The notes beneath the pieces were generated by a model that saw only the letters and a program-made list of their open reading frames with translations, did no database searches and was not told the origin of the DNA. From Talaromyces rugulosus (Eukaryota > Ascomycota > Eurotiomycetes > Eurotiales > Trichocomaceae): DNA of 64,000 bases. The position numbers and the translations under genes were made by a program. The stretch is taken from contig NC_049563.1 in NCBI RefSeq assembly GCF_013368755.1, positions 1,488,001 to 1,552,000 of the forward strand, written 5' to 3'. Position 1 is the stretch's first letter; each line of letters starts with the position of its first letter. This document shows positions 55,459 through 55,656 of this stretch, piece by piece.

Positions 55459-55642
55459 AGCATGTTAGCTCAGGGGGAGAGCGCCGTAAGACCCACTTTT
55501 CCATCAATCCGACCAATAACATTGTAACTGACAATCTTAATAGGGGCTCATAACCCGGAGGGTACGACACCACTTTCAGTTCTATTCGAGAATTCACCAC
55601 TAACGAATCTTCTAGACCCTGGATCGAAACCAGGACATGCTA
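55459..55642 (+). tRNA. tRNA-Met(CAT), initiator type, interrupted by two GT-AG introns
   Basis: Exons 55459-55485, 55544-55561 and 55616-55642 join to a 72-base tRNA including the discriminator A. The acceptor stem AGCATGT/ACATGCT pairs 7/7, the D stem GCTC/GAGC 4/4, the anticodon stem CCGGG/CCCGG 5/5 around loop CTCATAA, and the T stem CCTGG/CCAGG 5/5 around loop ATCGAAA. The variable loop is AGGAC. Initiator hallmarks are A1:U72, three consecutive G:C pairs below the anticodon loop, and A54/A60 in the T loop. The A box (TAGCTCAGGGGG, 55466-55477) and B box (GGATCGAAACC, 55621-55631) are intact. Insert one (55486-55543, 58 bases) begins GTAAGA, has CTGAC with branch A at 55531 and ends TAG. 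Insert two (55562-55615, 54 bases) begins GTACGA, has CTAAC with branch A at 55603 and ends TAG. Neither lies at the canonical 37/38 position. Confidence 0.82.
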
Positions 55643-55649
55643 AAATATC

Positions 55650-55656
55650 TTTTTTT
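55650..55656 (+). terminator. Pol III T7 terminator of the split tRNA gene
   Basis: Seven T residues begin eight bases after the discriminator base, as expected for RNA polymerase III. A weaker four-T run (55497-55500) occurs inside insert one. Confidence 0.7.

Follow-up and report, generated by a model that had tools for sequence, protein, structure and literature searches.

The window analyzed in the present study is a stretch of 64,000 nucleotides (C3:1488001-1552000) from the genome of Talaromyces rugulosus (35,758,560 bases, 6 contigs). It contains an interrupted gene for an initiator tRNA-Met (copy A), which is flanked by two genes recognized as open reading frames. From their letters, we take these to be a RING/PHD-like gene on one side and an MFS transporter gene on the other. 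A GH5 cellulase is also encoded within the window; its closest named match, from Talaromyces proteolyticus, shares 88% identity, and another match reaches 94%.

Removal of two GT...AG segments from copy A leaves 72 nt (Table 1). All 21 stem pairs of the joined 72-mer (7+4+5+5) were Watson-Crick, and ARAGORN identified it as tRNA-Met(cat). The original prediction, which was made from the sequence of this locus, had proposed the same exon and intron borders, the same complete pairing and the same anticodon. It had also mentioned initiator hallmarks; the marks read from the letters were A1:T72, the T-loop residues A54 and A60, and three G:C pairs adjoining the anticodon loop, in addition to CAT. 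The list of marks by which we assigned copies to the initiator class is one that we assume to be characteristic. PMC3978253 gives A54 as an initiator feature.

Both introns of copy A are located away from 37/38, as predicted: they follow positions 28 and 46 in the numbering used herein, corresponding to linear nt 27 and 45. The predicted branch words, CTGAC and CTAAC, and the TAG acceptors were present. However, the branch A had been placed exactly 12 bases before each 3' end, whereas 12 nt follow it and the A is the 13th. We presume that the A-box and B-box letters of exons 1 and 3 are Pol III promoter elements and that the T run downstream acts as a terminator.

Copy A was not recognized in its unspliced form. 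ARAGORN reported 0 tRNAs in the window as it stands, Rfam at the gathering score also reported none, and Rfam gave no match up to E=1 on the piece that holds copy A (L001). In the original prediction, either insert left in place destroyed the fold, and standard tRNA finders were expected to miss the gene.

Table 1. Positions of interrupted tRNA genes, their parts, and Asp genes lacking the D-loop insert (positions without a contig are those of the window)
Feature	Position	Strand	Details
Initiator tRNA-Met, copy A	55459..55642	+	72 nt when joined
iMet exon 1	55459..55485	+	5' strand of the acceptor and D arm, through position 28; first base A1
Presumed Pol III A-box region	55466..55477	+	within exon 1; tRNA nt 8-19; intact, by sequence
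mRNA-type intron 1	55486..55543	+	58 nt; GTAAGA...TAG; tRNA positions 28/29
Branch word CTGAC, intron 1	55528..55532	+	branch A = 55531, then 12 nt
iMet exon 2	55544..55561	+	anticodon arm (CAT) and first part of the variable loop
mRNA-type intron 2	55562..55615	+	54 nt; GTACGA...TAG; tRNA positions 46/47; absent from copy B
Branch word CTAAC, intron 2	55600..55604	+	branch A = 55603, then 12 nt
iMet exon 3	55616..55642	+	T arm, acceptor 3' strand, A73
Presumed B box GGATCGAAACC	55621..55631 (= C3:1543621-1543631)	+	intact
Seven-T run, likely Pol III terminator	55650..55656	+	by sequence
Initiator tRNA-Met, copy B	C5:311732-311854	-	exon 1 with 2 differences from copy A
Leu(AAG)	C2:2367498-2367651		51-nt mRNA-type intron following linear nt 25
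Ser(GCT)	C3:1985423-1985630		two mRNA-type introns, one of 54 nt following nt 26 and one of 50 nt following nt 32
Asp(GTC)	C2:5477978-5478124		54-nt mRNA-type intron following nt 17, separating the two D-loop G
Two tandem Asp genes without D-loop insert (L052)	C3:2623610-2623882		

Another initiator gene in the genome

Exon 1, with up to 3 mismatches allowed, occurred at two places in the genome: the window copy and copy B. Copy B has a 51-nt intron (GTGAGT...CTAAT...TAG) at the same tRNA position as intron 1 of copy A, and the second-position intron is absent. When joined, copy B was identified by ARAGORN as tRNA-Met with a CAT anticodon. The mature forms of the two copies were identical at 67 of 72 positions. 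Two of the five differences are in the D loop, one is in the variable loop, and two form a pair of the anticodon stem, in which a two-sided change from G-C to A-T was noted (A-T at 29:41 of copy B, replacing the third G:C). The strands of this pair meet only in spliced RNA, and intron 1 falls within the 5' strand.

The two loci did not align past the exons and a few signal bases (next best E 0.31), and the likeness between the two versions of intron 1 was at shuffle level (208/500 shuffles scored as high). Since the exons are alike at 67 of 72 positions while the inserts are unrelated and the flanks do not align, we consider the exons to be held by selection on the joined RNA, with the insert drifting; this evidence of conservation comes from paralogues within one genome. 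Conserved exon blocks with drifting inserts in related genomes had been anticipated for copy A, and the recurrence of the blocks in copy B excludes unrelated cloverleaf halves. Based on the cloverleaf, the CAT anticodon, and the initiator marks, both copies are predicted to be eukaryotic initiator tRNA-Met genes.

Four pattern searches and one DNA search of the genome, the tRNA catalogue of which is incomplete, revealed no initiator gene free of interruption. GGATCGAAACC occurred at 13 places, and a pairing T stem and acceptor followed in copies A and B only. A relaxed pattern permitting any T stem and acceptor gave 11 matches, comprising the two initiator genes and nine others, the T stems of which had 2 to 4 of 5 pairs. 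When up to 3 mismatches were allowed, exon 3 occurred at two genome places, and a 9-base anticodon-loop pattern, which had 162, was dropped as a search key. The DNA search with spliced copy A returned pieces of copy B only, and is regarded as weak because copy A itself was missed. When run on both loci, a covariance model built from the joined copies A and B matched single exons only. Outside this genome, the exon-3 pattern had 0 matches in genome_contigs, and the T-arm pattern identified 11 loci in viral_contigs (by their letters, nine phage tRNAs and two non-tRNA loci), none of which was fungal. A count of other initiator genes had been suggested in the original prediction; the one found, copy B, is also interrupted.

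An Rfam tRNA scan of the genome, in which 63 of 941 candidates were scored, gave 46 matches, 45 of which were over the cut-off. ARAGORN called Met in none of these matches and made no call for two. This catalogue contained no elongator Met, Phe, Trp, or His, and is a lower bound because the scan missed copy B. Rfam detects copy B as a tRNA by skipping the insert (34.5 bits; gathering 29). Ordinary anticodon-loop introns were present in 36 distinct genes of 50 according to ARAGORN, and tandem tRNA pairs with such introns (Asp, Asn, Glu) were observed at L052, L025/L030 (C2:673681-673998), and L124 (C3:4861773-4862286). L019 (G000:C1:602940-603015), unnamed by ARAGORN, appeared by eye to be Thr(TGT) with a 4-nt anticodon-loop intron. 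L029 (C4:2781855-2781925) and L055 (C3:854895-854966) are A+T-rich and tRNA-like, and by eye look mitochondrial in origin.

Leu, Ser, and Asp genes of the same kind

Searches with T-arm words revealed three further genes that carry one or more mRNA-type introns: Leu(AAG), Ser(GCT), and Asp(GTC). The interrupted genes came from two words, GGTTCGANTCC (43 places, all examined) and GGTTCAANTCC (49 places: 44 inspected, four known tRNAs, and one within the window, which was covered by the wider scan described below). The word GGTTCRANCCC gave ordinary tRNA genes only (93 places, of which 10 known tRNAs, one place beside U6, and 60 inspected places were covered). The total is at least five genes for four tRNA species (iMet twice, Leu, Ser, and Asp) with seven mRNA-type introns. 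Copy A was correctly recognized in the original prediction, but is not the single odd gene that it was taken to be.

The mRNA-type introns of all the genes are at 18/19, 24/25, 26/27, 28/29, 32/33, and 46/47 in our numbering. The Leu, Ser, and Asp genes also have an ordinary anticodon-loop intron (19, 23, and 21 nt, respectively), and the Ser gene has three introns altogether. Among four possible solutions for Ser, we selected that with GCT, the donor GTAAGC, and a long variable arm of the serine type. The three alternative removals were rejected for an anticodon CAC and a D-loop start at weak donors.

The interrupted Asp gene was identical to one of the L052 Asp genes at 66 of 72 mature positions. 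All six differences are in the acceptor stem, where both members of three pairs are changed (C-G to T-A, A-T to G-C, and a C-A mismatch to T-G). Apart from the anticodon-loop intron, the sole insertion relative to this paralogue was the 54-nt insert. With GGT at either end, the borders of the insert can be shifted by three bases, and GTATGT...CAG is one of four placements. The presence of iMet intron 2 in copy A and its absence from copy B represent a similar contrast. With paralogues that lack the intron in question as the reference (Asp and iMet intron 2), intron gain and loss may be studied in these genes.

The unspliced iMetA, iMetB, Leu, Ser, and Asp genes were called by ARAGORN as none, Ser, His, Arg, and Pyl, respectively, versus Met, Met, Leu(aag), Ser(gct), and Asp(gtc) after splicing. 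tRNA finders are expected to overlook or misname interrupted genes of this kind. Two other loci, L118 (G000:C2:5981561-5981911) and L119 (G000:C2:6553603-6553953), have T-arm, acceptor, and D-arm-like letters and no clear anticodon arm; they may be pseudogenes or more unusual tRNA genes.

Intron signals and chance controls

All seven introns were GT...AG and 50-58 nt long, three ending in CAG and four in TAG; GT...AG was also a search condition of the removal enumeration and the wider scan. CTRAY was present 9-14 nt before the 3' end in 7/7 introns. At that distance, it occurred in 1.9-5.3% of shuffled interiors and in 93 of the 3969 GT...AG segments of 50-58 nt in the window. The two coding introns compared, those of the neighbouring MFS gene, were 55 and 52 nt long with CTAAC/CTAAT 13-14 nt before the end, their borders having been set by us according to the reading frame and to MFS motifs. 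We rated the donors GTACGA and GTTAGT as less than ideal, by our own assumption of a good donor. In their ends, branch word, and coding-intron-like length, the seven putative introns match U2-type spliceosomal introns.

All possible removals of one or two GT...AG segments (45-70 nt) from copy A gave exactly one cloverleaf, the proposed one. The numbers of solutions in the real iMetA, iMetB, Leu, Ser, and Asp genes were 1, 1, 1, 4, and 1. In the per-gene control, the acceptor, nt 8-9, and the T arm were fixed and the interior was block-shuffled 1000 times for each gene. Any solution was present in 1, 0, 2, 3, and 1 shuffles per 1000 in the same order (for copy A, 1 or 3 per 1000 in two runs). 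A solution with the branch word was obtained in 0 of 5000 shuffles over the five genes. A wider scan of 356,863 bases picked for T arms (overlaps counted repeatedly) returned the five loci and no other. Its controls, one reversed and three block-shuffled, gave 0 loci. However, they mostly show the rarity of T arms because few were present (1-4 T-arm-like candidates versus 77 in the real sequence), and the per-gene shuffles are the better control.

Two other types of insert were considered and rejected. Introner-like elements are not suggested by the 21 pairs among the seven introns, which had no common sequence beyond the signals; the best pair, Leu/Ser2, was equaled by 8 of 300 shuffles, which is approximately chance level for 21 tests. 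Group I and II self-splicing introns have a core of some hundreds of nt, far above 50-58 nt, and Rfam at the gathering score identified no family, including no group I or II intron, in the 64-kb window.

Proposed processing, alternatives, and known systems

We conclude that copy A is very probably a working nuclear iMet gene, transcribed by Pol III, with two spliceosomal introns, and one of at least five such genes. The exon structure, the conservation of exons between copies, the intron signals, and presence or absence between paralogues support this conclusion at the sequence level. We infer transcription by Pol III, removal of the introns by the spliceosome, a need for growth, and the order of events. 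Pol III would read the gene from the A box in exon 1 and the B box in the last exon. The iMet precursor would carry two U2-type introns, both excised by the spliceosome, and the three joined exons would form the 72-nt tRNA, which may then fold into the cloverleaf and undergo end processing and CCA addition. Since the Leu, Ser, and Asp genes carry both kinds of intron, their precursors would need the spliceosome as well as the tRNA splicing endonuclease and ligase, which would take out the anticodon-loop intron. This step presumably follows the spliceosome because the endonuclease and ligase need a folded tRNA.

It also appears likely that part of the nuclear tRNA set, including all of the initiator genes found, goes through the spliceosome, with Leu, Ser, and Asp needing two unrelated splicing machines and initiation being spliceosome-dependent, and that the introns were gained repeatedly, none in the B box, possibly by reverse splicing. 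Six inserts are between the A and B boxes, and none is in the B box. The searches partly imposed this placement, since they demanded that the T arm, the acceptor, and nt 8-9 all be intact.

Splicing by the spliceosome normally goes together with transcription by Pol II. This coupling favors an alternative in which the genes are read by Pol II in longer transcripts, spliced in an mRNA-like manner, and then trimmed to tRNA. However, the internal A and B boxes are kept, even in the Asp gene, in which the terminal GG of the A box is split by the start of the insert, whose donor G continues the box, and T runs follow the interrupted genes. We regard transcription by Pol II as quite improbable.

We consider it very improbable that the inserts are ectopic tRNA introns of the kind present in archaea and some red algae, with the tRNA endonuclease cutting at bulge-helix-bulge-like sites. 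Ectopic tRNA introns are known in C. merolae and the Guillardia nucleomorph according to PMC3978253, and T. rugulosus has ordinary anticodon-loop introns, including in three of the five genes. However, all seven inserts combine GT...AG ends and a length of 50-58 nt with a branch word at a near-fixed distance, while ARAGORN, the borders of which may be off by at least one base, placed GT...AG ends on 0 of 36 distinct anticodon-loop introns. The full bulge-helix-bulge motif was found in 0/7 inserts and likewise in 0/4 ordinary introns, the positive controls, so that its absence carries little weight. Canonical endonuclease introns were rejected for the seven, none of which is at 37/38.

It is hardly credible that the interrupted copies represent pseudogenes in decay or cloverleaves formed by chance, with the true initiator missing from the assembly or missed by the searches: the catalogue is incomplete and the relaxed pattern did not span every T arm, so that an initiator with an unusual T arm is conceivable, but two initiator copies have intact exons and a two-sided pair change, B boxes are intact with T runs downstream, four tRNA species are affected, and no shuffle gave a solution with a branch word.

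Usually, nuclear tRNA introns are substrates of the tRNA endonuclease, a protein enzyme, and mRNA introns are substrates of the spliceosome. The five genes of the preferred spliceosomal reading appear to cross this divide in essential tRNAs, and some hold both kinds of intron. Since the iMet, Leu, Ser, and Asp genes are cut by mRNA-type introns, the production of these tRNAs seems to need the mRNA-splicing machine. If this is the case, translation initiation is directly dependent on the spliceosome, and these genes offer a natural case for the handling of short Pol III transcripts by the spliceosome.

Canonical eukaryotic tRNA introns (37/38, endonuclease) share the nuclear tRNA gene as a host and are also present in the Leu, Ser, and Asp genes. 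In contrast, the mRNA-type sites are elsewhere, with GT...AG ends and a branch site, and there are up to three introns per gene (Ser). PMC8450103 (tRNAscan-SE 2.0) limits eukaryotic tRNA genes to one intron and describes the noncanonical-intron search for archaeal candidates; PMC3978253 covers ectopic tRNA introns in red algae and nucleomorphs. The tRNA introns of archaea, Cyanidioschyzon, and nucleomorphs similarly occupy many tRNA positions, several per gene. However, they have bulge-helix-bulge or undefined signals according to PMC3978253 and PMC8450103, rather than GT...AG and a branch word. No earlier account of spliceosomal introns in nuclear tRNA genes was present among the literature matches listed, which consisted of titles and the starts of abstracts with subscription journals mostly outside. 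The intron type is already known, whereas tRNA would be a new class of host for it.

The mRNA-type introns of fungal U6 have reportedly been gained several times, and ascomycete rRNA has spliceosomal introns. According to PMC5832005 (2017), U3 and U6 are the only small structured RNAs then known to be often interrupted by introns, and fungal U3 snoRNA has normal spliceosomal introns in a non-coding RNA, as proposed here. For small structured RNAs that carry spliceosomal introns, fungal U6 and U3 serve as precedents. U6 is similar in having a U2-type intron in a small structured Pol III RNA; however, the host here is a tRNA with internal promoters, the fold of which is broken by every insert. 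The U3 and rRNA cases differ because the host is not a tRNA and no second splicing machine acts on the same precursor. U6 had two full-length matches in the T. rugulosus genome, both uninterrupted, and thus the known Pol III case of an mRNA-type intron was not found there. A B-box-like word, GGGTTCGAACC (C4:2469571-2469581), is located directly past one of the U6 genes (L073; G000:C4:2469452-2469551, + strand) and its T run, and recalls the downstream B block of yeast U6.
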